From: Betaproteobacteria bacterium | GTDB taxonomy: Bacteria > Pseudomonadota > Gammaproteobacteria > Burkholderiales > JACQAP01 | Length of the DNA stretch: 64,000 bases | Direction of reading: 5' to 3' | Assembly: GCA_016194905.1 (NCBI GenBank) | Contig: JACQAP010000005.1 | Span: forward strand, 269,114-333,113 | Shown here: positions 19,237 to 36,912 of the stretch, piece by piece | Layout of the letters: every line of letters begins with the position of its first letter | Numbering within the stretch: the stretch's first letter is position 1 | Notes under the pieces: generated by a model | What the model was told of the DNA's origin: nothing | The model's database searches: none | The model's input: only the letters and a program-made list of their open reading frames with translations | Made by a program: the position numbers and the translations under genes

Positions 19237-19237
19237 C

Positions 19238-20349: not shown

Positions 20350-20390
20350 TGTTCCTACGCCATCGCGTGCCGGCGATCGGGGCGCGCATC

Positions 20391-20441
20391 GTTCAACCAG
20401 CGGCTTTGTTCAACCAGCAGCATTGTTCAACCAGCAGAGGA
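20391..20441. repeat. Three tandem 17-bp repeats before the second yceI gene
   Basis: GTTCAACCAGC begins units at 20391, 20408 and 20425, giving an exact 17-base period. The remaining six bases vary (GGCTTT, AGCATT, AGAGGA). The third unit carries the ribosome-binding site of the following gene. Confidence 0.85.
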
Positions 20442-20442
20442 G

Positions 20443-21015: not shown

Positions 21016-21030
21016 TCGCCTCCCTGCCTT

Positions 21031-21069
21031 AAAGACAAACGGGCCGCGATACGCGGCCCGTTTGTCTTT
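21031..21069. terminator. Bidirectional terminator with a perfect 18-bp stem
   Basis: AAAGACAAACGGGCCGCG (21031-21048) pairs without mismatch with CGCGGCCCGTTTGTCTTT (21052-21069) around an ATA loop. It lies between two convergent genes and has A-rich and T-rich outer ends, so it can stop transcription from both sides. Confidence 0.9.
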
Positions 21070-21084
21070 GAATCGGGGGAATTG

Positions 21085-21900: not shown

Positions 21901-22007
21901 GCTCGTTGGGTGAATGCAAGTACCGCGCCAGTCACCATCGAAGCCGGCGCAACGGCGGCGATTCTAAACGAATGCGCCCAACAGCGAAGTTTCGCGCCGC
22001 AAATCGG

Positions 22008-22259
22008 TCATTCGCAAGTGTCTGCCGCAGCCTCTTTGCATTCCACCCGGCTATGCTCGGGATTGGATACACAGTGATACAGCTTGTTTTTGCATTTGGC
22101 GCACCAGACCGTGGTGGACCCTTCGCGCGAATAGCGGCTCTTGACGATGTCCACGCTCATGGTACCGCAACCGGTTGCCCCGGCAGTCATCGTGCTCTGG
22201 GTCTTGCAGCCGGACAATACGCAGACGGCCGCCACGAGAATGACGATTCGGAGATTCAT
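22008..22259 (-). CDS. Small cysteine-rich lipoprotein
   Basis: Predicted lipoprotein of 83 residues. A signal peptide ends in the lipobox LSGC (Cys18). The mature part has six further cysteines (GCG, WCAKCKNKLYHC, VECKE, DTCE), including a C-x2-C pair, which suggests metal binding or several disulfides. No family is recognised. The ATG at 22259 lies 77 bases after the CBS-domain gene on the same strand. Confidence 0.7.
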   Translation of the reverse strand: MNLRIVILVAAVCVLSGCKTQSTMTAGATGCGTMSVDIVKSRYSREGSTTVWCAKCKNKLYHCVSNPEHSRVECKEAAADTCE

Positions 22260-22336
22260 GAAACCGGTTGAAGCAAAAATGCCGCGGGAGGGAAACAGCG
22301 CGACAGGACAGATGCTGAAGTCCGGGGTGTGCGCTT

Positions 22337-22765
22337 TCAATGGTGAATATAACTTTCCAGTTGCTTGATGACGAATTCCTTCTCGGACAGCATTTCCTTC
22401 ACCACATCGCCGATCGAAATCAGACCAATCACCTTTTTGTGTTCCAGCACCGGCAGGTGGCGGATACGCTTGTCCGTCATCAGACCCATGCAATCTTCTA
22501 CCGTTTGTTCCGGTCGCACGCACACGACCTTTTCTGTCATGGTCTCGCGCACCGGCGTATCTTTCGAAGCCTTGCCCTGCAGGACGACCTTGCGGGCATA
22601 GTCGCGCTCGGAAAAAATACCGACCAGATGCCCGTCTTCGAGCACTACGACCGCGCCGATCTCTTTTTCCGCCATCACCTTGAGCGCCTCCAGCACAGTG
22701 GCACTTGGGGCGACCGAAATCAGGATGTGGCGCTTCGATTCCAGGAGTTGCTGAACTGTTTTCAT
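22337..22765 (-). CDS. CBS domain pair protein
   Basis: Cytoplasmic protein of 142 residues made of two CBS domains (about 8-65 and 72-130) and nothing else. ATVLEALKVMAEKEIGAVVV and QTVEDCMGLMTDKRIRHLPV are the repeated cores. Such stand-alone CBS pairs bind adenine nucleotides and tune partner proteins; the partner is unknown here. AGGGGGAG precedes the ATG. Confidence 0.93.
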   Translation of the reverse strand: MKTVQQLLESKRHILISVAPSATVLEALKVMAEKEIGAVVVLEDGHLVGIFSERDYARKVVLQGKASKDTPVRETMTEKVVCVRPEQTVEDCMGLMTDKRIRHLPVLEHKKVIGLISIGDVVKEMLSEKEFVIKQLESYIHH

Positions 22766-22930
22766 TTTCTCTCCCCCTCGCGAAACAGTCCTGACGATGA
22801 CTCATTACCGTTCTTGTAAGGCCAGTTTAGACCAGCAGCGATAGTTGTCAACGCGCCGATTCGCGAGTCCCCGGTCCGCAAGCCGATCGGCTTGCGGTGA
22901 AAGTGCGGCGACGGGTTCGCATGACTGCGT

Positions 22931-24511
22931 TCAAGCCGTCGTGCTGCGCCGCTGTTTCACCCACATAATCGGCTGCGCCTTCACCGGCAGCGGCGCGGCG
23001 CCGTGCTTGACCAATGTCTTGTCCAGTTCCTTGCCGGCATCGTCGGCCAGTGCAGCCACACGCGCCGCGCGGATCGCTTCGGCACGTGCTTGCGGCCCGT
23101 CCCATTGCCCACCGACCGCGAGATGGTCCAGCACGTGCAGCAGGTTGTCCTTGCCGCGATCGTTGGTGCTACCGTAGCCTTTGACGAGGCGACCGCACAA
23201 CGCGATCTCATGGCCCAGTTGCCACTGATTACGCGCGCCCTGCTCCACCGCCGCCAGCCAGCGTTCGATCATGGCCTGCTCCTGCGCAAACCGGCTACCG
23301 CGCTTGCGCAGCCCTTTCAGACTCGCGAGGAAGCGCAGCGCGAGAAAACCCGAGATGGTATGGACGCCGATCTTGAGCGGAAGCGCAAGAGCCGTTTTGC
23401 CGTTCTGCTGGCGGCGCCTGTCCCAGCCGATCAGTGCGCGGGCCAAGGTCCGCGGCAGCAGCGCAGCGAGTTCCGGCACGCCGGGCTTGAAGTAATCGTA
23501 GATGCGCATCAGATCTTCAGCCGGCGCCTTGACTTCCTGCCTGACGCGCGCGAAGCGGCTCGCGCGGCATTTCAGGTCGGCTACGCGTACGATGTCGTCG
23601 AAGGCCATCCATAGCGCGAGATAACGCGCCGTCTCGCTGGTAGTCACGTAACCCCCTTCGCCCGAAGGATCCCCTGCCCGTTCGGCTTCGAGGACCCGCT
23701 TCATGCGCTGCGCGTAGAGTTCGGCGTAGTCGCCATCCTGATACTCCAGCGTGCGCGCATGACCGGCACCCAGCATGGCATGTGTCGGCGGCGGGAAAAC
23801 GCGGGCGAGATCGGCCGGCAATGCGGCGGCAAAGGTCGGCGCCACGGCAGAGGCCGGCGTCTGCGCCGCCAGCCCCCGGGCCACGATCTCGAACGCTCGG
23901 GCGAATCCGCGCAAGCTCGGTTCGACCCCTCTTCCGGATTGCCGGATGGTTTGTTCGTAAGCCTCGCGCGAAAACGGCAGCACGCCACTACCCGCGATCG
24001 CGCCGAACAACACCGCGCTCAACACGGTCCCTGCTTCCTGGGCCACCGCGGACATGTCGAAGATGCGGGCGCTCTGGCTGTACTGCCGCACGACCTTCAG
24101 CAATTCCTCGGAGGACGCGCGTCCATCCGCAAGCTGCAATTTCTCGGCGGTGGTCAGCGTGCGGGAACTGGAGGTCACCACGAGCGTGCGATCCGCCGAT
24201 GTCATGCCGTTGCCGATGTGGCGCACCGTTTCCAGCAGTTCGGAGGAAACCAGCACATCCAGGGCACCAGGCACCGGATAAAGGCTGAACACCGGCTTGC
24301 GACCACCCAGCTCCGCAACCGGCACGGGAAAGACTTCGAAGTAGTACGTCGTCGAACCGGTGCGCTGCGCGACACCCGGGATCGAAGTGCTCTGCGCGCT
24401 GTAGCCGCTGCGAGTTGCGGTTTCCACCAGCCATTCGGCCAACACCCCGCCACCCTCGCCGCCGAGGGCGCAGATCAGCAATGTGAGCGGACGACGATCG
24501 GCGAGGTTCAT
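22931..24511 (-). CDS. iorB: Indolepyruvate oxidoreductase, subunit B (IorB-like)
   Basis: Gamma-type subunit of a 2-oxoacid:acceptor oxidoreductase that oxidatively decarboxylates aryl-pyruvates to aryl-acetyl-CoA. It has 526 residues: a pyruvate ferredoxin oxidoreductase gamma domain (LLICALGGEGGGVLAEWLVE, about 10-200) followed by a long DUF6537-like C-terminal region. The proteobacterial large-form IorB has this extension, whereas archaeal IorB is only about 200 residues. The ATG overlaps the iorA stop (ATGA), so both subunits are made in equal amounts. Confidence 0.88.
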   Translation of the reverse strand: MNLADRRPLTLLICALGGEGGGVLAEWLVETATRSGYSAQSTSIPGVAQRTGSTTYYFEVFPVPVAELGGRKPVFSLYPVPGALDVLVSSELLETVRHIGNGMTSADRTLVVTSSSRTLTTAEKLQLADGRASSEELLKVVRQYSQSARIFDMSAVAQEAGTVLSAVLFGAIAGSGVLPFSREAYEQTIRQSGRGVEPSLRGFARAFEIVARGLAAQTPASAVAPTFAAALPADLARVFPPPTHAMLGAGHARTLEYQDGDYAELYAQRMKRVLEAERAGDPSGEGGYVTTSETARYLALWMAFDDIVRVADLKCRASRFARVRQEVKAPAEDLMRIYDYFKPGVPELAALLPRTLARALIGWDRRRQQNGKTALALPLKIGVHTISGFLALRFLASLKGLRKRGSRFAQEQAMIERWLAAVEQGARNQWQLGHEIALCGRLVKGYGSTNDRGKDNLLHVLDHLAVGGQWDGPQARAEAIRAARVAALADDAGKELDKTLVKHGAAPLPVKAQPIMWVKQRRSTTA

Positions 24512-26661
24512 GCCGTTTGCAGCCAACGCAACACCAAACCGCGCAATCCGTCGAGCAGGCGCTCGTGCAACTTCGGATTGCGGATCACTTCGGCACGGTA
24601 GAACGACGGGCACAAAGTGGCCGCGTGCGCATTCTCTCCACACAACCCGCAGCCGACGCAACCGTCGATGACGGTGGCGACGGGATCGACCCTGAGCGGA
24701 TCCGGACTGTCTTTCAGTGTCAGCGTCGGGCAGCCCGACAACCGGATGCAGGCGTGATCGCCCGTGCAAACGTCCTCGTCGACGCCGTATTTCACGCGAA
24801 CCACGCGCTTGCCCGCCTTCAGCAATCCGGCAATCCACGGCTTGATGCGCCGCTGCCGCTCGAGCTGACATTCGCCCTCGGCGACGATAACCTTGAGTCC
24901 GTTGAACTCGGCGGTAAAGGCTTCGTCGAAGGTCTTGCGCATTTTTTCGACGTGATAGGTATGCACGGTGCGCATCCACCGCACGCCCATGCCCGACAGC
25001 GTCTTCTCGATGGTGAGATTGCGATGGACCAGGCTCTGCTGCTTGTCCTTCGCAGCGACCTTGTCATCCTCGTCCGGCGTCGAGATCAGCTCCTGCGTAC
25101 CGGTGGCAGCGGTATAGCCGTTCTTGAAGATGACCAGAACCGCATCGTCGCTGTTGAACAGCGCCGACTGCACGCCGGTGAGCAAGCCGTTGTGCCAGAA
25201 ACCGCCATCACCCATGACCGACAGCACGCGCCGCTTCATCATGGGCGATACGCCGGCCCGGCTGGCCAGGCTCATGCCGTAACCGAGGATCGAGTGCCCG
25301 AACGAAAATGGCTCGAAGGTCGCGAACGAATGGCAGCCGATGTCGCCGGCAATGTGGGTGGGACCGACATCGCGCTGGGACAGTTTGAGCGCGGCGAACA
25401 CCGGCCGCTCCGGGCAACCGACGCAGAACTGCGGCGGGCGCGCCGGCAGCGGCGCCGAGAGCTGCCGCGCAATATCCTGACGGCGTTTTGTGTTGCTGCG
25501 CAGCCAGCCCTTGCCGGGTTCGGCCGCACTGCCGGGGAGATAGCGATCGACGAATTTCTCCAAGCCGCCGGCCATGACTTCCACGGTGTATTCACCCGCG
25601 GCCATCAACATGTCCTTGCCGTGGATCGGTGTGTTGATGTCGAGCCGGCGCAGCGTGACGAGAATTTCCTGCTCGATATACTCAGGCGTGCCTTCTTCCA
25701 CGATCAACACCGCGCGCTTGCCCAGACAGAACTTCGCAATCTCCTCCGGCACCAGCGGGAAGGTGACGTTCAGCGCAAAGATCGGAATCTCGGATTCGCC
25801 GAACGCGTCGGCCAGGCCGAACTGCTGCAGCGTGCGAATGAGCGAATTGTATAGCCCGCCTTGCACGATAAAGCCCAAGTCGTCGCGCCTGCCCGGAAAC
25901 AATTCGTTCAGGCCTTGCTCGGCGATGTAGCGCCGCGCCGCCGGGATGCGCGCTTCCACCTTGAGCTTCTCGTGGCGGAAAGTCACCGGCGGGTGCGCCA
26001 GGCGCGAATAGTCGAACTTCGCCGGCTCCTCCATGAGGTGGCGGGTCGAGATGGCCGGTGCGACGTTGTCCTTGCACACGAAGCTGCCGCGCACGTGACA
26101 GGCGCGGATGCGCAGCTCCAGCAGGGCCGGCATGTTCGAGGCCTCGGAAAGCCGGAAGCCCTCTTCCACCATGCGCACCATGTTCGAGAGTTCCGGCCGG
26201 GGATCCAGCATCAGCATCGTGGATTTGAGCGCATAGGCATGCGTGCGCTCCTGGATCACGCTGGCACCTTCGCCGTAGTCTTCACCGACCACGATCAGCG
26301 CCCCGCCGGTAACACCGGGCGAGGAGAGATTCGACAACGCATCGGCGGCGACGTTGGTACCGACGATGGATTTCCAGGTCACCGCGCCGCGCAGGGGATA
26401 GTGAATCGACGCACCCAGCATCGCCGCGGCGGAGGCCTCGTTCGAACACGCCTCGACGTGCACGCCGAGCTGGTCCAGGTAATCTTCCGCCTGCACCATG
26501 ACATCGATGAGATGGGAAACCGGCGCGCCCTTATAGCCGCCGACATAGGCGACACCGGACTGCAGCAACGCCTTGGTGATGGCGAGAATGCCTTCGCCGT
26601 GGAAGGTTTGCCCGTTGCCCAGGCTCAGCAGCCCGATCTCTTTCTGGAAGGATTTCTCCAA
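24508..26661 (-). CDS. iorA: Indolepyruvate oxidoreductase, subunit A (IorA-like)
   Basis: Thiamine-diphosphate and iron-sulfur subunit, 717 residues from the TTG at 26661. The N-terminal PFOR domain begins EIGLLSLGNGQTFHGEGIL. The ThDP-binding motif is MGDGGFWHNGLLTGVQSALF. The C-terminus has ferredoxin-type cysteines (CVGCGLCGENAHAATLC and CTGDHAC). No ATG exists near the conserved start; the in-frame ATG at 26895 would add a non-homologous 78 residues. With IorB it degrades aromatic 2-oxoacids such as indolepyruvate from tryptophan. Confidence 0.88.
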   Translation of the reverse strand: MEKSFQKEIGLLSLGNGQTFHGEGILAITKALLQSGVAYVGGYKGAPVSHLIDVMVQAEDYLDQLGVHVEACSNEASAAAMLGASIHYPLRGAVTWKSIVGTNVAADALSNLSSPGVTGGALIVVGEDYGEGASVIQERTHAYALKSTMLMLDPRPELSNMVRMVEEGFRLSEASNMPALLELRIRACHVRGSFVCKDNVAPAISTRHLMEEPAKFDYSRLAHPPVTFRHEKLKVEARIPAARRYIAEQGLNELFPGRRDDLGFIVQGGLYNSLIRTLQQFGLADAFGESEIPIFALNVTFPLVPEEIAKFCLGKRAVLIVEEGTPEYIEQEILVTLRRLDINTPIHGKDMLMAAGEYTVEVMAGGLEKFVDRYLPGSAAEPGKGWLRSNTKRRQDIARQLSAPLPARPPQFCVGCPERPVFAALKLSQRDVGPTHIAGDIGCHSFATFEPFSFGHSILGYGMSLASRAGVSPMMKRRVLSVMGDGGFWHNGLLTGVQSALFNSDDAVLVIFKNGYTAATGTQELISTPDEDDKVAAKDKQQSLVHRNLTIEKTLSGMGVRWMRTVHTYHVEKMRKTFDEAFTAEFNGLKVIVAEGECQLERQRRIKPWIAGLLKAGKRVVRVKYGVDEDVCTGDHACIRLSGCPTLTLKDSPDPLRVDPVATVIDGCVGCGLCGENAHAATLCPSFYRAEVIRNPKLHERLLDGLRGLVLRWLQTA

Positions 26662-26985
26662 TTGGTTTCTCTGATTGATTTCTCTGCGGCTTCTTACGAT
26701 CCCATCCCTTAGGCGTTCGATCTTACCCGCTGAGCAGAGAAAAATCTTGCCAGCGTTCGCAAGCGTGGAAGGGCAGGGCCAACAGCATCCTTGCAGGCTT
26801 GGCGCCCGGATTGCGCGAAACGCGTCCTTACGCGATAGTAGGAATTGTTCCTCGTTGTAAGGACTCGACATTACCTCCGCCAAGCTCACCAGCAAAGGTT
26901 AGATCCCCTCGCCGCACCTCGCCGATGCACGGCTGCCGAACTGTACTACGATCGATTATGATTCCCTATTGGCAGTTCTTCCACC
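26662..26985. other. Divergent intergenic region between iorA and the SARP-type regulator gene
   Basis: About 320 bases separate the two divergent genes and must contain both promoters. I could not identify a convincing -35/-10 pair, inverted repeat or small gene here; the open frames are short and out of family. Confidence 0.4.
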
Positions 26986-29900
26986 ATGTTATTTTCGCCC
27001 CGGTTGATGAGCGCGAAATCACTTGAGATTTTCCTTCTTGGCCGATTCCGAGTCCGCATTTCCGAAACGAGGATCGATAGCGGCGACATTCCGGGCCGCA
27101 AGGCGCCGGCCCTACTGAAGTTATTGGCGCTCGAACCCGATCATCAGCTGGGGCGCGATCAGGCAATGGAGCTGCTATGGCCGGATTTGGATAGCTCCAA
27201 TTCCGCCGCACAGTTGTATAAGGCACTCCACCAATTGCGCAAAGCCTTTGCCGCCGGCGAGCAAGCATCCGATACCAGCGAGTGGATCGTCACGGCCAAG
27301 AACGTTGTGAAACTCGCGCCACCTGGGGGAGTGGTCACGGACGTTGATGCGTTTCAGCGGGCGGCGCGTAACGCATTGGCCTCAAGACGGATCAACGGGT
27401 TGGAGCGGGCTGCCGCGCTGTACACAGGTGATTTGCTGCCGATGGATTTGTATGCGACGTGGGCCGCAGCCCCGCGCGATCATCTCCGGCAGCTCTCTAT
27501 CGATGTGTTGTTGGCTCTTGCCCAAGGTTATCAAGAGCGCGAGGATCTGGCTGCCGCTGCGCAAACCTACCGGACAGCGCTGGACAAGGATGCCACGCTG
27601 GAGCTCGCGCATCGGGGGTTGATGGCGATCTTTGCACAACAAGGACAACGTGACCGAGCGCTGAAGCAGTACGGTATTTGCCTCGATGTTCTGGCGGACG
27701 AGCTGGGTGTGGCGCCGTCACCGGAGACCCGTGCGTTGTACGGCAGGATCGACCGGCAGGGATCAGGCAGTGAGGTCGCCCGGGAGCGGACAATATTGCG
27801 CGTACCGATCCAAATGGCGCCCTTGGTGAATCGCGAGGCCGAGTGCCAAGTCATCACCGATTGCCTGGATCAGCTGCTTGCCAAGCGAGGCAACGCGCTG
27901 TTCATCGAGGGACCACCCGGTATCGGTAAAACCTGCCTGGTTCGCGAGCTGATTGCTCGCGCAGAGCAGCGTGGAATTCGCGCTCTCGCCGGTTCGTCTT
28001 ATGAAATGGAAGGGGCGATCGCCTACAGCCCATTCATCGAAATCATCCAGGCGGCGCTACACGATAGTCCCGCGGGCCAAGAACTGATACCCGCGGAAAT
28101 GGCCTCGGTACTGCCTGGCCAAGCGCTGAACGGGCAACCTGTTCCCAATTCTGACCCGCGCGCGGCGCAGAACTATTTGTTCGCGGGCATCGTCGCGTTT
28201 TTACGGCATCGGGCGCTGTCAAGCCCTCTGGTCGTGGTTGTAGAGAACTGCCACGCGGCGGATCAGGGTTCGCTAGAGTTGCTTCACTTTCTTGGGCGGC
28301 GGTTGCAGGATCTGCCGCTGCTTCTGGTCATCACCCTGCGCGATGAACGCAGTGCGGCGAGCGACCCGCTGCGCAAGCTCATCCGAAGTTTAGGCGAAAC
28401 GGCGATGGCACCCATATTGACGCTCGGCCCCTTAAGCCCCGCCGATCATCATGAATTGCTCGAGCAGCAGAATCCCCAACGACCGCTGTCACGCGAGCGC
28501 AGCGACGAAATCTTCCGGCTTTCGGAAGGCAATCCGATGTACGCGCTGGAGCTGCACGAGTTTCGCATTCATTCCGCGTCACCCGCTGCGCAACCGCCGC
28601 GATCGACTGGAACGATTCCGACCACGCTGAGTAACAGCGTGCTGGAACGGCTTGAAAAACTCTCTTCGTCCGCGCGTGAGCTACTGACGATCGCAGCCGT
28701 CGTTGGCGAGGACGTAGCCTATCCGTTGCTTGAAGCACTGTGGCCGGCCGGCGGTAGGGGGGCAGACGGTGCTGGAGCAACCTTACTCGACTTGCTCGAT
28801 CAGCTCTCCGATGCGCAATTGCTAGACGAACGAGGCATCCACTACCATTTTCGTCACGCGCTGTATCGAAGCTGCGTCTATGAATCCGCCTCCGAAGCGA
28901 GGCGTCGTGCGCTGCACGCGCAAGTGGCGCGCAGCCTCGTCCAGTTGGGCGAGCGCGAAGATGAGCTGCCGGTCGAGCGGATCGCCTTTCATTACCAGAG
29001 GGCCGGTGATGCCAGACAGGCCGCGCACTTCCTGATGCTCGCCGGCCAGCGGGCGGCATCGATGTACGCGCACGACGATGCCTTGCGAAGCTACCGAGAG
29101 GCCTTGGCGCTACTGGAGCCGGCCAAGGACTCCCTGGTCAAGCGCATCTGCGGAAGTCTTTACAGGGCGACCGGGGACACCAGTCGTGCCGCCGGTTATC
29201 TGAAGGAGAGCTTCACGGCCTATGAACGGGCGCTGTCTTTGTTCGAGGATTTGCCCGTCAATTCTTCCGACCTGACGGAGTTACATAGCAAGATCGCGCT
29301 TGTCGCCATCTTTACCACCGATATGCCGAAAGCCGGGCAGCATCTCGCACAAGCCTGGCAGCATGCCGGTCCCGAGCCGCGCGTCCATGCGCGGCTGCAC
29401 ATCCTGCGTGCGCTTCACCTGTGGCACTTCAACCGGCTCGATGAGGCGGCCGCCTATGCGCACCGCGCGCTTGAACTCGCGGAATCGGTACACGCGCCGT
29501 TGGAATCCGCACAGGCCTGCGAGATCCTGGCGATGACCTATCTGCCGTTGGGGCGCTGGCAGGAAGGACTGCAATACGAGAAACGGCGCCTGCAGCACGG
29601 CCGTTGGTCCCCCGACCTGGTGGTGGCTACCGATGCTCATCTTTGTTTGTGGGAATACCATGTGCACGATGACCACATGCTGGATCAGGCGAGTTCGTTC
29701 ATGCGTGAGGTCGCGACGGAGGCTGATCGGTTAGGCGATCTGCGTTGCGTTGCCATTTGCCAGTATGCGCTGGGCACGATTCATTTATGGCAGGGCGAAA
29801 CGAGCAGTGCGCTCTCCCAGCTCGATGCAAGCCTTGCGCTGCACGACAAGGTAGGTTCGCCGGCCGGGATGGCCTACGCGCTGGCACGCCGCGCGGTGCT

Positions 29901-30402
29901 ATATACGATGGGAAACGCCATCGATTTGGGCTGGCAGTCGGTGAAGAAAGGCATCGAGCAGGCGCAGCTCGCGTCCATACGCGACCATTGTCTGCAGCGG
30001 TTATATGGGGTTGGAATCTGGAATCGTCTGCAGGCGCAAGATACCGAGCAGGTCTCCGATTTGGTAGCACGAAGCGAAGCGCTGCTCGGAGCGAACGGCC
30101 CGTGTACGGCATGCAGTCTGGATCTCTATCCCTGGCTGGCGCTCTATTACCTCGAAAAAGACGATATCGAGCGTGTCGCGCAGTGCGCGGAATGTCTCGA
30201 GCAACTCGCCGCCAAAACCGGCAATCCTGTAGGTGAGACCTTCGCAGCCATCGTCCGCTGTGGCGCGGAATTGGCGCGTGGCAACACTGCCCGCTTTCAG
30301 GCATCGCGCCAGCAGGCGCTCGATCTCATGCAGAACGCTGTCCTGAGGGGTTCCACGTCACCGATGACCTACCTGTTCGACCGTATGGCTGGCACGCGCT
30401 GA
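26986..30402 (+). CDS. SARP/BTAD-AAA-TPR transcriptional regulator (1138 residues)
   Basis: Large signal-integrating activator. An OmpR-like winged helix starts at LEIFLLGRFRVRI (about 13-100), followed by a bacterial transcriptional activator (BTAD) helical domain (DVDAFQRAARNAL to about 255). An AAA/NACHT-like ATPase comes next with Walker A GPPGIGKT at 309-316 and a hydrophobic strand (SSPLVVVVENCHA) at the Walker B position, then TPR-type helices up to the C-terminus (for example AHRALELAESVHAPLESAQA). A second ATG at 27007 is possible. Such proteins are common in actinomycetes; in betaproteobacteria large versions act as activators of nearby accessory genes. Four same-strand genes follow. 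Confidence 0.88.
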   Translation: MLFSPRLMSAKSLEIFLLGRFRVRISETRIDSGDIPGRKAPALLKLLALEPDHQLGRDQAMELLWPDLDSSNSAAQLYKALHQLRKAFAAGEQASDTSEWIVTAKNVVKLAPPGGVVTDVDAFQRAARNALASRRINGLERAAALYTGDLLPMDLYATWAAAPRDHLRQLSIDVLLALAQGYQEREDLAAAAQTYRTALDKDATLELAHRGLMAIFAQQGQRDRALKQYGICLDVLADELGVAPSPETRALYGRIDRQGSGSEVARERTILRVPIQMAPLVNREAECQVITDCLDQLLAKRGNALFIEGPPGIGKTCLVRELIARAEQRGIRALAGSSYEMEGAIAYSPFIEIIQAALHDSPAGQELIPAEMASVLPGQALNGQPVPNSDPRAAQNYLFAGIVAFLRHRALSSPLVVVVENCHAADQGSLELLHFLGRRLQDLPLLLVITLRDERSAASDPLRKLIRSLGETAMAPILTLGPLSPADHHELLEQQNPQRPLSRERSDEIFRLSEGNPMYALELHEFRIHSASPAAQPPRSTGTIPTTLSNSVLERLEKLSSSARELLTIAAVVGEDVAYPLLEALWPAGGRGADGAGATLLDLLDQLSDAQLLDERGIHYHFRHALYRSCVYESASEARRRALHAQVARSLVQLGEREDELPVERIAFHYQRAGDARQAAHFLMLAGQRAASMYAHDDALRSYREALALLEPAKDSLVKRICGSLYRATGDTSRAAGYLKESFTAYERALSLFEDLPVNSSDLTELHSKIALVAIFTTDMPKAGQHLAQAWQHAGPEPRVHARLHILRALHLWHFNRLDEAAAYAHRALELAESVHAPLESAQACEILAMTYLPLGRWQEGLQYEKRRLQHGRWSPDLVVATDAHLCLWEYHVHDDHMLDQASSFMREVATEADRLGDLRCVAICQYALGTIHLWQGETSSALSQLDASLALHDKVGSPAGMAYALARRAVLYTMGNAIDLGWQSVKKGIEQAQLASIRDHCLQRLYGVGIWNRLQAQDTEQVSDLVARSEALLGANGPCTACSLDLYPWLALYYLEKDDIERVAQCAECLEQLAAKTGNPVGETFAAIVRCGAELARGNTARFQASRQQALDLMQNAVLRGSTSPMTYLFDRMAGTR

Positions 30403-30431
30403 CCCTCCTTCTCGGCTACCGAGTTGCAAGT

Positions 30432-30496
30432 GGAAGATTTCCGGAAGAGCCGATTGCTACCGTGATGTCCAAGCTGATGAAGTGACTCAGCGATCA
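30432..30496 (+). promoter_or_regulatory. Shared upstream element, copy A (before the TlpA-like gene)
   Basis: Block 1, GGAAGATTTCCGGAAGAG (30432-30449), is identical to copy B at 31814-31831. Block 2 (30456-30496), beginning GCTACCGTGATGTCC and ending GACTCAGCGATCA, matches copy B with few differences. It ends 26 bases before the ATG of the TlpA-like gene. It includes the 8-bp palindrome TTCCGGAA. Likely a regulator-binding or leader element. Confidence 0.7.
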
Positions 30497-30522
30497 TTTT
30501 CTGCCGAACTGGAGCCCTGTTT

Positions 30523-31086
30523 ATGCTTATCTTCCTGCGTACGTTGTCCTCGCTGGCAATTGCCACACTCATGTCCATAGCGCTCCTCCAGATCGCGGGC
30601 GCGGCTGAACTCCAGCTGGGGACGGCCGCACCCGAGTTCCGCCTTGAAGGAATGGACAATAAGACGGTCGCCCTTAGCGACCTTCGCGGCAAATTCGTCG
30701 TGCTGCATTTCGCCGCCACCTGGTGCCCGTTTTGTGCGGCGGAAGCGACCCACCTGGAGGGACTGCATCAGAAGTACCGCGACAAGGGGGTGGCCGTGGC
30801 CATCATTGACGTCAAGGAAGGCAAGAGCAAAGTCGCGAAGATGGCAAAAAAGTTCGGATTTACCTTCCCCGTATTGCTCGACTCCAACGGCTCGGTCGCC
30901 AAAGATTTCGCCCCACCGCCCCACGTGTTGCCCGATCTGCAGCGCGATGAAGTCATGATCGCATCCAACTTGATCATTGATCCCGACGGAAAGATTCAGT
31001 TCTTTTCCCTGCTGGACACTGGTAATTTCGACGCCAAGCTTATCAAACTGCAAGCACGGTTGGATGAGTTGCTGAAGAGCAAGTGA
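30523..31086 (+). CDS. Exported TlpA/redoxin-family thioredoxin-like protein
   Basis: Periplasmic thioredoxin-fold protein of 187 residues with a signal peptide to about residue 28. The redox site is Cys68-Pro-Phe-Cys71 in FAATWCPFCAAEA. The cis-Pro segment is not the usual GxPTxF; the region reads FAPPPHVLPDLQRDEVMIAS followed by NLIIDPDGKI, closer to peroxiredoxin-like/redoxin members. It comes 120 bases after the SARP-type gene and overlaps the DsbD-alpha-like gene by 4 bases (GTGA). It is the first gene after shared element A. Confidence 0.88.
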   Translation: MLIFLRTLSSLAIATLMSIALLQIAGAAELQLGTAAPEFRLEGMDNKTVALSDLRGKFVVLHFAATWCPFCAAEATHLEGLHQKYRDKGVAVAIIDVKEGKSKVAKMAKKFGFTFPVLLDSNGSVAKDFAPPPHVLPDLQRDEVMIASNLIIDPDGKIQFFSLLDTGNFDAKLIKLQARLDELLKSK

Positions 31087-31640
31087 ACGCTGAAATCCAA
31101 GCGCAGCGTAGCGGGCCTGCTTACCTCCTCCTCGCCACGATCCTTTCCTGTCCGGCGCTGGGCTTTGCGCAGGTAACGAGCGTGGTCACCGTGACGCTTC
31201 CTGCCTCGGTTGAAATAGAGGCGGGCCACAGCCGCTCGTTGCGCATCCAGGTCAGAGTTAATCCGGGTTACCACGTGCAGGCCAATCCGGTGAGAAATGC
31301 AAACCTGATTCCTATCACGGTTGAGCTTGGGCCAAGTGGCGGTGTGCGCCCGGACCGGCCAGTGTATCCGCCAAGCAAGCCGTTTCGCATAGCGGATGGC
31401 TCGGAAGATTTGGTCGTCTACGACGACTCCTTCTTTATCGAGTCTTCAGTCCGTGTGGCCCAGGCGCAACGGCCTGGCTTGGTGGTCCTGAACGGCACAC
31501 TGCGGTATCAAGCCTGCACCGACAGAACCTGCCTTGCCCCGCGTACCATTCCGCTGCGGGTCCCGATTAAAGTGGTTCGTGATCACCGACAAAGCTTAGC
31601 CGCAGAACCGCGTCAATATTCATTGCCGCATCATCGATAG
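31083..31640 (+). CDS. Lone DsbD N-terminal (alpha) domain-like protein
   Basis: Exported protein of 185 residues similar to the N-terminal immunoglobulin-like domain of the thiol:disulfide interchange protein DsbD, but without the membrane and C-terminal thioredoxin parts. The domain shows VNPGYHVQANPV and FRIADGSEDLVVYDDSFFIE, and the active pair Cys145/Cys150 in YQACTDRTCLAPRTIPLRV. GTG at 31083 overlaps the stop of the TlpA-like gene, so the two are coupled and are probable redox partners. A signal peptide lies at about residues 12-29. Confidence 0.82.
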   Translation: MNAEIQAQRSGPAYLLLATILSCPALGFAQVTSVVTVTLPASVEIEAGHSRSLRIQVRVNPGYHVQANPVRNANLIPITVELGPSGGVRPDRPVYPPSKPFRIADGSEDLVVYDDSFFIESSVRVAQAQRPGLVVLNGTLRYQACTDRTCLAPRTIPLRVPIKVVRDHRQSLAAEPRQYSLPHHR

Positions 31641-31813
31641 GGTGTTTGTCGGGGGCGAAGACTGACAATTGCACTTCGCGGAAGCGGCGGCGTTGGGCGC
31701 TTCAGGTCTCGCGGCGGCGCAGCAGCAAGTGCGCGCTTGCGTGCCGCGTTGGTTCGCCCGCGGCGGCCTCATCGGCCAGGCCGATCCGCGCGAGATCGCG
31801 CCAAGTCGCAGGC

Positions 31814-31888
31814 GGAAGATTTCCGGAAGAGAACCGGAAGAACCCATCGCTATCGTGATGCCCACGCTGAGAAGCGACTCAGCGATCG
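31814..31888 (+). promoter_or_regulatory. Shared upstream element, copy B (before the methyltransferase gene)
   Basis: Block 1 (31814-31831) is identical in 18 of 18 bases to copy A. Block 2 (31849-31888), GCTATCGTGATGCCC to GACTCAGCGATCG, matches copy A with a 1-base gap. The spacer between blocks is 17 bases here against 6 in copy A. It ends 25 bases before the methyltransferase ATG, nearly the same distance as in copy A. Confidence 0.7.
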
Positions 31889-31913
31889 TCATCAGCCAAA
31901 AAGGAGGTGCATC

Positions 31914-32702
31914 ATGACTACGGCGACGGCAAACCCGCTGCAACTCAATACCCTTGAGCTGGAGCAAAAGGTCAAGGACATGTATCAGGCGGTTGCGCAG
32001 AACCCGCACGGCGAGTTTCACTTCGAGCTGGGCCGCGTGTTGGCGGAACGCCTCGGATATCGCGGCTCCGATCTGGACCGTATTCCGGCGGCCGCCATCG
32101 ACTCGTTCGCGGGCGTTGGCTATTACTTCGACCTTGCCAAGCTACAGGAAGGGGAAACGGTAGTCGATCTGGGAAGCGGATCGGGCATGGACTCGTTCGT
32201 GGCCGCCCTGCACGTCGGCAAGACCGGCAAGGTGGTCGGCGTGGACATGACTGACCAGCAGCTCGCGAAAGCCGAGCGCTTGCGCGCTGCCGCCGGTTTC
32301 GAAAACATTTCCTACTTGAAGGGGTACATCGAAAGCGTGCCCCACGACGACGGCGCCTTCGACGCGCTCATCAGCAACGGGGTGATCAACCTGGCGCCGG
32401 ACAAGCACCGGGTGTTCAAGGAAGCGGCGCGTCTGTTGCGGGCCGGCGGGCGGTTGGCGATTGCCGACATCGTCACCGAAGCCCAGCTTCCCGACGGCAT
32501 TACCTGCAATGCCACCTTGTGGGCAGCCTGCATCGGTGGCGCCATGCAAGTGGACAACTATGTGGCGGCGATCGAGCAGGCCGGGCTGCGGGTGGACGCT
32601 ATTCAGGACAATCCGCAATACCGCTTCATCTCCGATAACGCCCAGGGCGCGGCCAGGAAGTACGGCGTAAAGAGCGTTTCGCTTTTGGCAACCAAGGCGT
32701 AG
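31914..32702 (+). CDS. ArsM-like SAM-dependent methyltransferase
   Basis: Class I methyltransferase of 262 residues with an extended N-terminal helical part. The SAM loop is VVDLGSGSGMDSFVAA (ArsM proteins usually have GCGSG), the acidic strand is VVGVDMTDQQLAKA, and ALISNGVINLAPDKHRVFKE and GGRLAIADIV are typical of the arsenite methyltransferase/UbiE-like group. Only Cys198 and Cys206 (TCNATLWAACIGGA) are present. Cys206 falls where ArsM has one of its arsenic-binding cysteines, while the N-terminal ones are absent. AAGGAGG lies 6 bases upstream of the ATG. The substrate may be a metalloid or another small molecule. Confidence 0.82.
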   Translation: MTTATANPLQLNTLELEQKVKDMYQAVAQNPHGEFHFELGRVLAERLGYRGSDLDRIPAAAIDSFAGVGYYFDLAKLQEGETVVDLGSGSGMDSFVAALHVGKTGKVVGVDMTDQQLAKAERLRAAAGFENISYLKGYIESVPHDDGAFDALISNGVINLAPDKHRVFKEAARLLRAGGRLAIADIVTEAQLPDGITCNATLWAACIGGAMQVDNYVAAIEQAGLRVDAIQDNPQYRFISDNAQGAARKYGVKSVSLLATKA

Positions 32703-32774
32703 CAAGGTAACCGGCGTAGCGAGTCACCACGCAACGGATCTTTTGACTCAATTTCGACTATTGGAGGATAAGAC

Positions 32775-33281
32775 ATGTTTAAGGTGATCCAAGGAGCAAC
32801 TGCCACGTCAAAAGTGCGTTCTTTTATGAAGTCAGCCACTATGGCAGGCCTCGCGATGAGCCTGGTGGTGGCAAGCGTTCTCAATGCCGCAGACCCGCAG
32901 CCAGCCAAATCGCTCTATGATCGTTTGGGAGGGGTTTATCCCATCTCCGTGGTGGTGGACAGCTTCATCGATCTGCTGCTGGTCAACGATGTCCTCAATT
33001 CAAATCCAGCCATCAAGGCCGCGAGAGACCGGGTTCCCGCGGCAGGGCTGAAGTTTCATGTGACCACCCTGGTCTGCCAGCACACAGGAGGGCCATGCCA
33101 ATACACCGGCCGCGCAATGAAAGAGTCTCACAGCCACCTCAATATCAGCGAGAAAGAGTGGCAGGCCATGGCGGCGGACTTCCGGCGGGTGCTTAACAAC
33201 TACGGTGTGCCCGCGAAAGAGCAGAAGGAGTTATTCGCCATCGTGGAAAGTACAAAGCAGGACATCGTGGCCGGAAAGTAA
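32775..33281 (+). CDS. Exported group I truncated hemoglobin
   Basis: Globin of the 2/2 truncated group I type, 168 residues including an N-terminal signal-like segment (about 18-39, ending in NAAD). The globin starts at SLYDRLGGVYPISVVVDSFI. CQHTGGPCQYTGRAMKESHS contains the start of the family's F-helix region, with His119 the expected proximal heme ligand, and the HLNISEKEWQ segment follows. GGAGGA precedes the ATG. Export of such a globin is uncommon. It sits 72 bases after the methyltransferase, so it could be in the same transcript and protect against NO or serve redox sensing. Confidence 0.87.
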   Translation: MFKVIQGATATSKVRSFMKSATMAGLAMSLVVASVLNAADPQPAKSLYDRLGGVYPISVVVDSFIDLLLVNDVLNSNPAIKAARDRVPAAGLKFHVTTLVCQHTGGPCQYTGRAMKESHSHLNISEKEWQAMAADFRRVLNNYGVPAKEQKELFAIVESTKQDIVAGK

Positions 33282-33440
33282 GATTCCCGGGCGAAACTCG
33301 TGGCTTTGGCAGGACATCATGGAGAATCGTGGTGCCTGCCGGCCGCGCGGTTTAGTGTTTGGAAGAAGAGCGTTGGCGCGAAGATCGAATGGCCGAACCG
33401 GCTAGAATCGGCGGCAAAAGCTTTCCCTTGACCGCCGATA

Positions 33441-34805
33441 ATGCCTGAGAAACCCCTCCCCGGCACTGCCTCCAGCCAATTCGCGAAGCGTTTCCAAGGC
33501 GCCGTCATACTGCCCGGCGACGCGGAGTTCGACCAGGCTCGCCGGGTGTGGAACGGCATGATTGATAAGACGCCGGCGCTGATCGCCCGCTGTGCGGGCG
33601 TCGACGATGTCAGGGCGGCGGTGGAATTCGCGCGAGAGCACCAACTGCTGGTCGCGGTCCGCGGCGGCGGGCACAGCGTGGCGGGTCACGGGACTTGCGA
33701 CGGTGGTCTGGTTATCGATCTATCGCGCATGCGCGATGTTCAAGTCGATCCGCAGAAGCGGGTCGCAGTGGTCGCTCCGGGTATGAATTGGGGTGGCCTG
33801 GACCGCGCGACGCAGGCGCACGCCCTGGCAGTGACTGGAGGAATTGTGTCCGATACGGGGGTCGCCGGACTGACCCTGAGTGGCGGCATCGGTTGGCTGA
33901 TGCGCAAGCACGGCTTGACTGCGGACAATCTGCTGGCGGCGAATCTGATTACCTCCGATGGAGAACGCGTGCACGCGAGCACGGAGCAAAACGCGGAACT
34001 GCTCTGGGGTTTGCAGCGCGGCGGGGGCAATTTCGGGATCGTCACCGAACTGCATTTCCGTCTGCACCCGGTGGGGCCGATCGTACTCGCCGGTTGGATC
34101 CTGTATCCGCAGGAAAAGGCAACCGAAGTTCTGCGTTTTTACCGCGACTACGCCGCCACCCTACCCGATGAGCTCACCACAATTGTTATCTTGCGCCGGC
34201 TGCCGCATCTGCCCACGTTGCCGCCTTTTCTGCGCGGCATGCCGGTCATCGGAATCTCGGTCTGCTATGCCGGAGTGATCGAGGCAGGTGAGCGGGTAGT
34301 GCAGCCTTTACGCGCCTTCGGATCACCCGTTGTTGACGGCATCGCTCTGAAGCCTTATGTCACTCACCAAACCATGTTCGACGCCGCGCAACCGCCGGGA
34401 CGCCACAACTACTGGAAGACCGCCTACTTGGCCGAGCTCAGCGACGCTGCCATCGATGTCATCGTCGATGGGGCCAGCCGGATGGTATCGCCCCTGTCGG
34501 CTCTGACGGTGTATCAGTTGGGCGGCGCGGCCCAACTGGGGAACGCGGCCTATTGCTTGAACGCTGCCGCGACCTGGACTGATCCGGCAGACATACAACG
34601 GAACATCGCCTGGGCCTGCGCGCTGTGGGCCGCGATCGAACCGTGGTCGACCTCGGGCGCCTATTCGAATTTCCTCGGCGAGGAAGATCAAGAGCGCACG
34701 CGCTCTGCCTATCTGAATCACTACGATCGCCTGGTGGCTCTGAAGAACGCTTATGATCCAACCAATTTTTTCCGCTTGAATCAGAACATCGGACCGACGG
34801 TCTGA
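33441..34805 (+). CDS. FAD-linked oxidoreductase, berberine-bridge-enzyme (BBE) type
   Basis: Flavoprotein of 454 residues. The PCMH FAD-binding half includes VRGGGHSVAGHGTCDGGLVI, where the His is the usual covalent 8-alpha FAD attachment site, and GGIVSDTGVAGLTLSGGIGW. The BBE C-terminal motif NAYDPTNFFRLNQNI is at the end. The second covalent cysteine seen in bicovalent members is not at the expected site (the segment reads TLSGGIGWLMRKHGLT), so it is probably mono-covalent. The substrate (sugar, alcohol or aromatic) is unknown. No signal peptide. Confidence 0.9.
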   Translation: MPEKPLPGTASSQFAKRFQGAVILPGDAEFDQARRVWNGMIDKTPALIARCAGVDDVRAAVEFAREHQLLVAVRGGGHSVAGHGTCDGGLVIDLSRMRDVQVDPQKRVAVVAPGMNWGGLDRATQAHALAVTGGIVSDTGVAGLTLSGGIGWLMRKHGLTADNLLAANLITSDGERVHASTEQNAELLWGLQRGGGNFGIVTELHFRLHPVGPIVLAGWILYPQEKATEVLRFYRDYAATLPDELTTIVILRRLPHLPTLPPFLRGMPVIGISVCYAGVIEAGERVVQPLRAFGSPVVDGIALKPYVTHQTMFDAAQPPGRHNYWKTAYLAELSDAAIDVIVDGASRMVSPLSALTVYQLGGAAQLGNAAYCLNAAATWTDPADIQRNIAWACALWAAIEPWSTSGAYSNFLGEEDQERTRSAYLNHYDRLVALKNAYDPTNFFRLNQNIGPTV

Positions 34806-34927
34806 ATCCCGGAGGGAGACACACGTGAGCGGATCCCATACCTGATCAAGTTTTCCTCACGCTGGCGTTACCTGCTTAAAGTGACGCAGTCTGGACTGGA
34901 CCGCATTGCGGATGTGCCGATCGGGGG

Positions 34928-35086
34928 GGCGCCGACTTCGCCGACTGCCTGCTAGGCCAGACGAACCTCGAAGCCGGATGCTCTGAAACGGTTACCCTCG
35001 ACAAGAAGGCCGCGAAGGCAGGCGGGTTGCGTTTATTGGCGCGTCTGACCCTGATGTATCGAGGTCCGCTCTCCGACGCTGGTTGA
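34928..35086 (+). pseudogene. Remnant of a VapC-type PIN-domain toxin (C-terminal piece)
   Basis: The frame reads GADFADCLLGQTNLEAGCSE followed by TVTLDKKAAKAGGLRLL, which matches the last third of VapC PIN nucleases (ADF-x-DCLIG, DKKAAK). There is no start codon or N-terminal half, and a run of seven G bases lies directly upstream. The frame stops at a TGA that overlaps the -35 box of the next toxin-antitoxin operon. I read it as a decayed gene. Confidence 0.5.
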
Positions 35087-35110
35087 CATCTGTATCTATA
35101 TGGATACAAT
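35083..35110 (+). promoter_or_regulatory. Promoter of the toxin-antitoxin operon
   Basis: TTGACA (35083-35088) and TACAAT (35105-35110) are 16 bases apart, close to consensus. The start codon is at 35116, only 5 bases after the -10, so the transcript would be leaderless or nearly so. Confidence 0.75.
35091..35108. promoter_or_regulatory. Operator palindrome in the toxin-antitoxin promoter
   Basis: TGTATC-TATATG-GATACA is an 18-bp inverted repeat filling the space between the -35 and -10 boxes. Binding by the antitoxin would block RNA polymerase, the usual autoregulation of such pairs. Confidence 0.65.
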
Positions 35111-35115
35111 GAACC

Positions 35116-35418
35116 ATGTTCTCTGTCCGGCTGACGCAGGAGTTTCAGGATTGGCTTGACGCTCTGAAGGATCGACGGGGACAGGTGCGTATCGCTGCTC
35201 GGCTCCGCCTCGCGGAGGCTGGCAATTTGGGCGATTGGAAGTCAGTCGGTGGCGAAGTCTCCGAGATGAGGGTTGACTTCGGTCCAGGCTATCGCCTGTA
35301 CTTCACGCGGCGGGGCAGCATTCTCATCGTCATGCTCGCTGGCGGTGAGAAATCGTCTCAGGCGCGCGATATCAAGCGGGCGCAACGAATCTTGAGTCAA
35401 TTGGAGTTGGAGCCATGA
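35116..35418 (+). CDS. RelE/ParE-fold toxin, HI1419 (Gp49-like, HigB-related) family
   Basis: Toxin of 100 residues, probably a ribosome-dependent mRNA interferase. The addiction-module killer family pattern is clear: FQDWLDALKDRRGQVRIAAR, then GNLGDWKSVGGEVSEMRVDF, GPGYRLYF, and GGEKSSQARDIKRA. The toxin gene comes first and its stop overlaps the antitoxin ATG (ATGA), the order normal for this family. The upstream promoter carries a palindromic operator. There is almost no 5' leader. Confidence 0.92.
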   Translation: MFSVRLTQEFQDWLDALKDRRGQVRIAARLRLAEAGNLGDWKSVGGEVSEMRVDFGPGYRLYFTRRGSILIVMLAGGEKSSQARDIKRAQRILSQLELEP

Positions 35419-35714
35419 GCAAAACCAAGAAGCCCGGCAAATTGCTGCCCTTCGATGCAGCACGATATCTGACCGATGATGCAGCCGTCGCGGAATACAT
35501 GACCGCGATTCTGGAAACAGACGACCCAGATCTCCTGCTGTTGGCCCTTGGAGACGTCGCTCGCGCCCGGGGAATGGCACAGGTCGCCAAAGACTCAGGG
35601 CTTGGGCGCGAGAGCTTGTACAAGGCTCTCGCTCCTGGCGCAAAGCCTCGCTTTGATACCGTGCTCAAGGTGGCGCGCGCTTTGGGTGTTCGTCTCGCGG
35701 CGCGTCCCGCGTAA
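35415..35714 (+). CDS. HI1420-type addiction module antidote protein
   Basis: Antitoxin of 99 residues with a C-terminal helix-turn-helix (GMAQVAKDSGLGRESLYKAL, about 56-75) and the family's N-terminal toxin-binding part (LLPFDAARYLTDDAAVAEYM). PRFDTVLKVARALGVRL is the typical end. It should neutralise the toxin encoded just upstream and bind the palindrome in the operon promoter. Complete and undamaged. Confidence 0.92.
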   Translation: MSKTKKPGKLLPFDAARYLTDDAAVAEYMTAILETDDPDLLLLALGDVARARGMAQVAKDSGLGRESLYKALAPGAKPRFDTVLKVARALGVRLAARPA

Positions 35715-35850
35715 AGATTCCGTCGAAATAAAAGGTGAATCTCCAATGGCCTGTGGCCTGGGGTCGTGCTCAACCGTGCGAAGCGGTGGATCTCGGATTG
35801 GTCCATCTGACCCTACAATCTTTCTACGATCTTTGACGTAAGGAGGATGT

Positions 35851-35890
35851 GTGTCATTACGTGTCATTGCGTGCCGTTATGTGCCAACTA
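35851..35890. repeat. Four degenerate 10-bp tandem repeats after a strong ribosome-binding site
   Basis: GTGTCATTAC, GTGTCATTGC, GTGCCGTTAT and GTGCCAACTA follow in register directly after AAGGAGGATGT (35840-35850). Two overlapping frames of 14-15 codons start here (ATG at 35847, GTG at 35851), but no normal gene does. Confidence 0.55.
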
Positions 35891-35977
35891 AAAGATGAAG
35901 CTTGACTAAGGCATTCGCAGCGTAGAGAGTCGTTCGACAATGATTTTACCCAGCACACTAATCAAGGAATAGTTGCG

Positions 35978-36616
35978 ATGGCTGAGCCTCGTATTCGAAG
36001 AATGAATTGGATGTACATTCTGGCAAGGATGTTTAAGCCGAAATTGATAGTCCGTGTTAACGCGCTTGACCCTATGAATCGTGACGGGCAATTTGTATTT
36101 GAAAATGCTGTGCCGGCAGAAGATGTGCGAGAGTTCGCGGAGGAAGGCGAGCTCTACGCCTCAAGCACGGATAATTGGCACTGGGTAGGGTGCATATATA
36201 ACGACAAGTGGTATAAGTTTATTCCTAAGGCCCAGTACGACGAGACGTTCAAGCGATTTAGGCAAATTGATTCCGATGCAAAGAAAAGAATTATGGAAAT
36301 AGACATCGCGACAGACTCCGATACGTATGAGCGATTTTCCAAGAAACTGACGTATGATCAGCAGCACGAAGTTGCGTATTTCCTTTATTGCGGTGATGAC
36401 CTAGGCGACGAAACTAAGGGAGCGCTGGATGCAATACATCTTGATGTGAGCACTGTGGACGGCCGCGAGTATGTGACGCGAGCGCTCGACCGGTTTGGTG
36501 AAGGTCACTGGCGGAAATTAGCGGAGATCAAACAACGTCAAAAGGAGAAAGAACGGAATACAGGTCCGAACGGTGTGTTCAATTCGGAAGGTCACTTCGG
36601 CTCCAATCAGAAGTAG
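35978..36616 (+). CDS. Orphan protein of unknown function, A+T-richer than its neighbours
   Basis: Open frame of 212 codons with AAGGA 10 bases upstream of the ATG. The protein is hydrophilic and mixed-charge with no signal peptide or membrane segment. Aromatic clusters (DNWHWVGCIYNDKWYKFIPK) suggest a folded domain in the middle, and the C-terminus is Lys/Glu-rich then Gly/Asn-rich. Codon use (AAA, GAA, TAT, ATT) differs from the surrounding GC-rich genes, suggesting recent acquisition. I recognise no family. It follows a toxin-antitoxin pair and precedes an A+T-rich gap. Confidence 0.7.
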   Translation: MAEPRIRRMNWMYILARMFKPKLIVRVNALDPMNRDGQFVFENAVPAEDVREFAEEGELYASSTDNWHWVGCIYNDKWYKFIPKAQYDETFKRFRQIDSDAKKRIMEIDIATDSDTYERFSKKLTYDQQHEVAYFLYCGDDLGDETKGALDAIHLDVSTVDGREYVTRALDRFGEGHWRKLAEIKQRQKEKERNTGPNGVFNSEGHFGSNQK

Positions 36617-36755
36617 CTAACTGTCGTAATACCGGGGTAGTTGGTTCGTTATCGCCTTTTTCAATTATCGTTTGAATGGTTCCCAGAGCCTTCGCCCGCT
36701 AAATTTTTCCGATCGCGGCTCTCGTCGATTAGAAATACTTTAGAATTGTTTCAGC

Positions 36756-36899
36756 ATGAATTCGTCGCTCGCGCGCATTCATCATGTTCTCTTTTTGGCT
36801 TATCTGGTCCGGTTCGTTTTGCTCGCCGCGGGCATCCTCTATTATTCCGAGATGGAAAAAGCCAAACCGACGGAAGTAAGGGCTTTGCTAATTGCGTAA
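36756..36899 (+). CDS. Possible 47-residue single-pass membrane peptide
   Basis: ATG at 36756 to TAA at 36897-36899 encodes a basic N-terminus, one hydrophobic helix (VLFLAYLVRFVLLAAGILYY) and a charged tail (SEMEKAKPTEVRALLIA). No good ribosome-binding site is visible, and it could be chance in an A+T-richer gap. It points toward the end of the convergent hrpA gene with 13 bases between them. Confidence 0.2.
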   Translation: MNSSLARIHHVLFLAYLVRFVLLAAGILYYSEMEKAKPTEVRALLIA

Positions 36900-36912
36900 T
36901 GATCAGCCCGGA

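Follow-up and report, generated by a model that had tools for sequence, protein, structure and literature searches.

The stretch of DNA analysed here, which we call the window, comprises 64,000 nucleotides of a genome recorded as Betaproteobacteria bacterium (contig JACQAP010000005.1), and its middle part carries a row of genes headed by a large SARP-type regulator. All are on the + strand: the 1138-residue regulator itself (26986..30402), an exported thioredoxin-fold protein (30523..31086), an exported lone DsbD-alpha domain (31083..31640), an ArsM-like S-adenosylmethionine (SAM) methyltransferase (31914..32702) and an exported group-1 truncated globin (32775..33281). The original prediction had listed these five same-strand genes, and their positions, strand and domains are borne out, by Pfam (including DsbD_N and Bac_globin) and, for the methyltransferase, by its ArsM-like matches. 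Three things lay beyond that first reading: a conserved gene for an oxidase with FAD_binding_4 and BBE domains (Pfam; 33441..34805, + strand), which follows the globin gene, the SARP-operator layout of the promoters and the cysteines of ArsM that the methyltransferase lacks. As set out below, sequence comparison gives good support to the view that a large regulator of SARP type controls a regulon confined to this locus.

The regulator has a winged-helix-like N-terminus followed by a BTAD domain (8.5e-15, 55.8 bits against a Pfam cut-off of 22.1), an AAA ATPase (AAA_16, 4.4e-22, 79.8 bits, residues 280-448, with the motif GPPGIGKT) and a TPR-like C-terminus. Translation may in fact begin at Met8 (27007), the position at which the frames of two relatives, L016 and L020, start. 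The C-terminus matches TPR_MalT at 24.9 bits, below the Pfam cut-off of 45, and is predicted to be all-helical, most 10-residue blocks after residue 800 having a predicted local distance difference test score (pLDDT) of 65-93. The full-length model (pLDDT 58.8) was too weak and was kept out of the fold search; with a model of the N-terminal part, the best Foldseek matches were EmbR (4.2e-06) and AfsR (1.2e-05), over about 250 columns at TM-scores of 0.46-0.49. EmbR also matches residues 11-259 in a phmmer search (8.6e-04), identity to AfsR chains is 19-20%, and there is no Pfam match to a LuxR-type helix-turn-helix in the protein. Eight other BTAD matches in the same genome share only the BTAD stretch with the regulator; in five of these eight (own-genome stretches L041-L043) that stretch forms the C-terminal end, the reverse of the arrangement in the window.

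Exact peptide patterns, run against 84,980 species genomes, retrieved five relatives of the regulator at 69-75% identity, from records named Betaproteobacteria, Burkholderiales, Ideonella or Proteobacteria. At the thresholds set, no copy beyond the genome's own appeared among 149 other relatives, three congeners included, among 368 other genomes of the class, or among plasmids. Twelve of the 17 cysteines of the window protein are invariant across the five orthologs; we considered cysteine sensing on this basis and set it aside, because invariant cysteines count for little among proteins that are 69-75% identical anyway.

Upstream of the methyltransferase gene lies a triplet of direct repeats, CGGAAGA-TTTC-CGGAAGA-GAAC-CGGAAGA (31813..31841, + strand), and upstream of the thioredoxin-like gene a doublet, TGGAAGA-TTTC-CGGAAGA (30431..30448, + strand), in whose first heptamer T replaces C. 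The heptamers are parted by 4-nt spacers, giving a spacing of 11 bp, and nine nucleotides past the last heptamer stands a −10-like hexamer, TATCGT (31851..31856, + strand) in the first case and TACCGT (30458..30463, + strand) in the second, both recognized by consensus match only. It had been noted that two of the four downstream units share an upstream element, and this is correct: the two copies (94 and 105 nt) align with 76 identities in 104 columns and one clean 11-nt deletion. The 11 nucleotides missing from the thioredoxin-side copy make up one repeat unit exactly, with no change in how far the last heptamer lies from the −10-like site. Judging from this alignment, the promoter is duplicated in the window, once with the triplet and once as a copy without one 11-nt unit.

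The 17-nt core of the element occurs exactly at only these two places in the 4.75-Mb genome, and the two window promoters hold the genome's only exact doublets, while with one mismatch allowed the genome has 5 sites against 7 in a backward control. Within the window, doublets at 11-bp spacing and with at most one mismatch number five (two of them elsewhere than at the promoters), against a mean of 0.69 in shuffled sequence and with none of 100 shuffles reaching five, and the perfect triplet is the only triplet match even at three mismatches (shuffle mean 0.16). According to excerpts of PMC10936776, SARP activator sites are direct repeats at 11 or 22 bp whose 3′ repeat lies 8 bp from the −10 sequence, and the PimR operator, in excerpts of PMC5930380, consists of three CGGCAAG heptamers with 4-bp spacers. 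By its layout, the window element looks like a SARP operator.

The operator travels with the regulator. Four relatives (L016-L019) have contigs that continue past the regulator gene and are counted here as complete, the fifth, L020, ending inside that gene, and in all four, as in the window, the operator stands before the first gene after the regulator. The 11-bp spacing and the nine nucleotides to a −10-like site are kept in the relatives' operators, so that all six promoters read have a TA-starting hexamer (a consensus match) at that distance. All three heptamers of the triplet match CGGAAGR in L016, L018 and L019 and two do in L017, whose third reads CAGAAGG. Conversely, an exact CGGAAG doublet is absent from all 17 loci (10 bacterial, 7 archaeal) that carry a methyltransferase of the same clade and no match to the regulator, and among 398 other genomes of the order none has the triplet at up to two mismatches. 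All SARP-linked methyltransferases group together in one clade (support 98/97), which fits a single capture. Sequence thus indicates that the operator is co-inherited with the regulator and stands before the operon, and because the operator tracks the regulator and both promoters carry it, the regulator and the genes downstream look like one regulon.

To this extent the proposal of one regulon is supported, the operator being present at the promoters of both the thioredoxin pair and the methyltransferase; the five-gene set on which it was built is not conserved. Regulator, methyltransferase and FAD/BBE oxidase occur in the same order in 4/4 complete relatives, the oxidase following the methyltransferase at 73-78% identity, whereas the thioredoxin/DsbD-alpha pair is present in 0/4 and the globin in 1/4 (L016). 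The expectation that other genomes would hold the five genes in this order is therefore not supported, and the conserved third member is the oxidase, outside the coordinates first drawn. DsrE genes accompany the core in L016, L017 and L018 and OsmC genes in L017, L018 and L019. By this comparison the system is a core of SARP, methyltransferase and FAD oxidase with variable redox add-ons. In the window the add-ons are a TlpA/ResA-like protein with a CPFC motif (Pfam AhpC-TSA, 2.1e-25; exported by eye), which has the AhpC-TSA/Redoxin fold and the CxxC and scores 89.7 bits against the curated ResA model NF002854 without reaching its cut-off of 170, and the DsbD-alpha protein with a C-TDRT-C motif (DsbD_N, 2.7e-08, 34.3 bits, cut-off 25). 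Their genes overlap by 4 nt, and a two-gene pair of this kind (45% and 44% identity) also occurs at another place in genome G038 (L069). The globin (Bac_globin, 2.6e-10, 41 bits, cut-off 21), whose signal-like N-terminus was recognized by eye, matches a PDB group 1 truncated hemoglobin at 3.3e-12, and the histidine of its MKESH stretch, which we take to be the proximal heme ligand, aligns with that of MPEAH in 9yg7.

These genes lie in an accessory insert (26667..36908, no strand assigned) between iorA and an hrpA-like helicase gene. We read it as an insert because the congener G002 (L092) aligns with the window on both sides, at 17748-26666 and 36909-40877, and between these two parts has only about 980 bp, of a different sequence. 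What occupies the iorA-hrpA gap varies, L092 8820-9798 differing from the window insert and resembling, on reading, a short-chain dehydrogenase. No direct repeats of at least 10 nt were found between the two insert ends and no tRNA in the window. An addiction-module-like pair is present inside the insert at 35116-35714 (a Gp49-like protein just below its cut-off and a dnstrm_HI1420 antidote). We also considered IorAB (22931-26895) as part of the module and rejected it: near-identical IorAB occurs in two congeners, followed by other sequence in L092 and cut at the contig end in L094, and is flank here. Elsewhere, in L075 7702-12590 (G148), genes for a methyltransferase (65%), DsrE (70%), IorA (82%) and IorB (63%) stand consecutively on one strand, with a sigma-factor gene, a second methyltransferase gene and a cytochrome c gene divergent from that row. 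A defence-system reading was dropped, since PADLOC matched the regulator weakly (4e-04) and the methyltransferase to mad2 (4.3e-22) over residues 60-189 only, a region that is its general methyltransferase domain; the other four proteins submitted to PADLOC gave no match.

So changeable a slot, with its addiction-module-like pair, a thioredoxin pair and a globin that are not conserved, might hold a chance pile-up of unrelated cargo, the element copies being promoter debris that has no functional connection with the regulator. We regard this as very improbable, given that four relatives with regulators at 69-75% identity retain the operator sequence, its spacing and its distance from the −10-like site, that the exact doublet is missing where the regulator is missing, and that the core order is kept in 4/4.

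The chemistry turns on the methyltransferase. We compared 22 loci of its clade, chosen at an identity of at least 56%: the window, L016-L019, ten other bacterial loci (two from G002) and seven of eight haloarchaeal plasmid records (all but H5). Eight more distant relatives were treated separately as MT2, and L039 was not included; neighbours were taken from lists of open reading frames plus tblastn, which recovered short genes such as that for DsrE in L075, and stops inside reading frames were read as X. ArsM has three cysteines, 72, 174 and 224, as given for CmArsM in excerpts of PMC7248198. The position of Cys72 is valine in 22/22 clade members; the Cys174-type position, the cysteine of a CIGGA motif, is kept in 22/22 and is the sole clade-wide cysteine; the window protein has no cysteine after residue 206, and a later cysteine is present in 9/22, none of them among the five SARP-linked proteins. 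The window methyltransferase keeps one of the three cysteines of ArsM, and on this count arsenite methylation is unlikely.

The metalloid methylation put forward in the original prediction is weakened by the same residues. As a reading of the whole locus it would have the methyltransferase methylate arsenite, or selenite or tellurite, while the other genes manage thiols and oxidation. The closest named family is indeed arsenite methyltransferase, both by NCBIfam (NF008823, best model at 219.9 bits) and among PDB matches, but the family cut-off of 263 is missed, and among the nine insert proteins searched no ars-type family was found except the methyltransferase itself. The retained Cys174-type residue speaks for it, the more so as selenoprotein relatives of ArsM carry a UxxG motif (PMC13188914, in excerpt) and a relative of the window protein at 39% identity (L037 957-1691, G160) reads LWTA-TGA-IAGG, an in-frame TGA standing precisely where the clade has its CIGGA cysteine codon. 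So may the later cysteines of nine clade members, which are only candidates for correspondence to ArsM Cys224, and the second methyltransferase copy of G002, near which (L077 4083-6867) lie genes that read from sequence as mercury-resistance genes. Against the valine at the Cys72 position and the missing late cysteine, we judge metalloid resistance an unlikely account. The L037 codon probably specifies selenocysteine, which suggests that this single residue is reactive; for a possible selenocysteine insertion sequence (SECIS) after the TGA there was no Rfam match, and two stretches there gave hairpin z-scores of −0.78 and −1.92.

The neighbourhoods of the clade point elsewhere. OsmC is encoded directly upstream of the methyltransferase in 6/7 haloarchaeal plasmid loci read; a DsrE gene is among the neighbours in 7/22 loci (one of them 3.4 kb away) and an exported globin gene in 4/22. 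A sigma-factor gene and a second methyltransferase gene stand by the clade member in L034 and L036 (sigma factor by eye) and in L075 (by Pfam), and a rhodanese-ArsR gene with a metallo-hydrolase gene in L065; in L077 a rhodanese-ArsR gene was recognized by eye. The regulator genes beside the clade are of four unrelated kinds at least (SARP, extracytoplasmic function (ECF) sigma factor, rhodanese-ArsR and haloarchaeal MarR-like), and the recurrence of OsmC, DsrE and an exported globin as partners, although the regulators are unrelated, favors detoxification of a thiol, sulfur species, peroxide or soft electrophile. As to which species is handled, we lean, from the OsmC, DsrE, rhodanese-ArsR and globin neighbours, toward thiol, sulfur or peroxide stress. 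Three of the five non-own globin genomes examined (out of six; G019 was left out) have a methyltransferase relative nearby (44% identical in G132), and neither of the two plasmid globin records examined, of three, does. Exported globins also occur near sigma-factor-type genes, in L066 7603-10099 together with a 44% methyltransferase and in L068 5571-7499, where an RskA-type anti-sigma gene is near the globin and the sigma gene is putative.

Antibiotic clusters typically include SARP activators for control and methyltransferases and BBE oxidases for tailoring, and the locus might alternatively be a remnant or minimal secondary-metabolite pathway. SARP-LAL proteins control such clusters (PMC5930380, PMC10972967, both in excerpt), and the oxidase matches the BagG/FevA2 model at 266.9 bits (cut-off 850) and the BagK/FevA1 model at 232.1 bits (cut-off 800). 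No scaffold-building enzyme was found, though, among the nine insert proteins searched, nor was any noticed by eye in the open reading frame lists of the relatives, and the recurrent partners of the methyltransferase are OsmC, DsrE and globin; we hold this pathway to be a shade less likely still than metalloid resistance.

On balance we think it probable that the locus was acquired horizontally and is a detoxification operon complete in itself, turned on by its large SARP-type activator (BTAD-ATPase-TPR). Several observations weigh against this. The N-terminal model of the regulator has a mean pLDDT of 62, and below 50 in the winged-helix part, its fold matches are loose (root-mean-square deviation 9-10 Å), and the regulator has no Pfam winged-helix match. 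The relatives are few (n=5), with L017 and L018 near-copies, and 7/17 of the control loci belong to archaea, in which one would not look for a bacterial operator. For PimR, two heptamers suffice for binding while the authors conclude that the triplet is needed to activate (PMC5930380, in excerpt), which speaks against a strong promoter for the thioredoxin pair. The FAD gene, about 160 bp past the globin gene, has no operator of its own and would have to be co-transcribed with the genes upstream. That globin and methyltransferase genes occur together in four of 150 relatives (methyltransferase in 5, globin in 7; p=1.5e-4 without the own genome) speaks for this reading, but the value ignores kinship, uses thresholds set by us and treats two samples of 150 genomes as identical; in G093 the genes are on different contigs, and globin loci without a methyltransferase exist (L067, L068, L078, L079). 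OsmC, DsrE and globin are each missing from most of the 22 loci, the partner set varies by lineage, and the window has neither OsmC nor DsrE near its methyltransferase.

If the locus is such a detoxification operon, some signal would act on the TPR/ATPase half of the regulator, whose SARP domains would then occupy neighbouring CGGAAGA repeats, 11 bp apart and adjoining the −10 site, and bring in RNA polymerase in the manner of AfsR and PimR. In the cytoplasm the methyltransferase would act with the FAD/BBE oxidase, joined in the relatives by DsrE, OsmC or both, to modify a small thiol, a sulfur species or another soft electrophile or nucleophile, the single conserved CxxG cysteine of the methyltransferase serving as ligand or nucleophile. 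The exported TlpA-like/DsbD-alpha pair would have been recruited in this genome through the copied operator and the exported globin added here as well, so that with the thioredoxin pair it might extend the response to the periplasm. Operator binding as the means of activation, a transcript reaching the FAD gene, stress detoxification and the periplasmic extension are all inferred from sequence. More speculatively, and with the odds in our view against it, the methyltransferase clade with OsmC/AhpD-type proteins, DsrE and exported globins may be an undescribed detoxification module for a reactive sulfur species or a soft electrophile, common to bacteria and haloarchaea and built around one CxxG chalcogen residue (cysteine, or selenocysteine in a relative), with the betaproteobacterial SARP sensing thiol chemistry through invariant cysteines of its TPR half, including C1040-x-x-C1043.

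Most of what is known of SARP activators comes from actinobacterial antibiotic clusters, which are also the focus of the three SARP papers cited here. Like SARP-LAL and large SARP activators such as PimR and AfsR, the window regulator has its SARP-type domain first, followed by an ATPase and a candidate TPR-like region, with no match to a LuxR-type helix-turn-helix, and like the PimR operator (CGGCAAG; PMC5930380, in excerpt) its operator has three heptamers with 4-nt spacers. Unlike PimR and AfsR, it has betaproteobacterial relatives, a CGGAAGR heptamer and a methyltransferase/redox operon in place of an antibiotic cluster. The methyltransferase shares with ArsM (NF008823) the SAM-binding fold and the CxxG cysteine and differs in falling below the family cut-off, in valine for Cys72, in the lack of a late cysteine and in its clade partners OsmC, DsrE, globin and FAD oxidase. 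A further parallel is with the OsmC-methyltransferase pairs of haloarchaeal plasmids (57-63% identity to the window methyltransferase; OsmC directly upstream in 6/7), one of which, L048, also has a 48% FAD/BBE oxidase, as in the window; unlike the window, these pairs have a MarR-annotated gene nearby in five of seven and neither a SARP gene nor the operator doublet. The pairs are annotated, and we know of no function assigned to them. The globin resembles group 1 truncated hemoglobins of the HbN type in its Bac_globin domain and the conserved histidine of a TGxxMxxxH stretch, and departs from them in its N-terminal export signal (by eye) and in lying near a methyltransferase of the clade in four of 22 loci. 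A literature search from the BTAD/SARP, OsmC, DsrE, ArsM, globin and haloarchaea angles, in part on titles and the beginnings of abstracts, returned no paper recognisably on this system.

If our reading is true, a rare SARP of betaproteobacterial type, equipped with its own triplet operator and governing a local regulon of two promoters, would make a small and testable switch. The duplicated promoter suggests how genes such as those of the periplasmic thiol pair get recruited by operator copying, and that the methyltransferase is found again and again with OsmC, DsrE and exported globins, in bacteria as in haloarchaea, points to a common detoxification chemistry.

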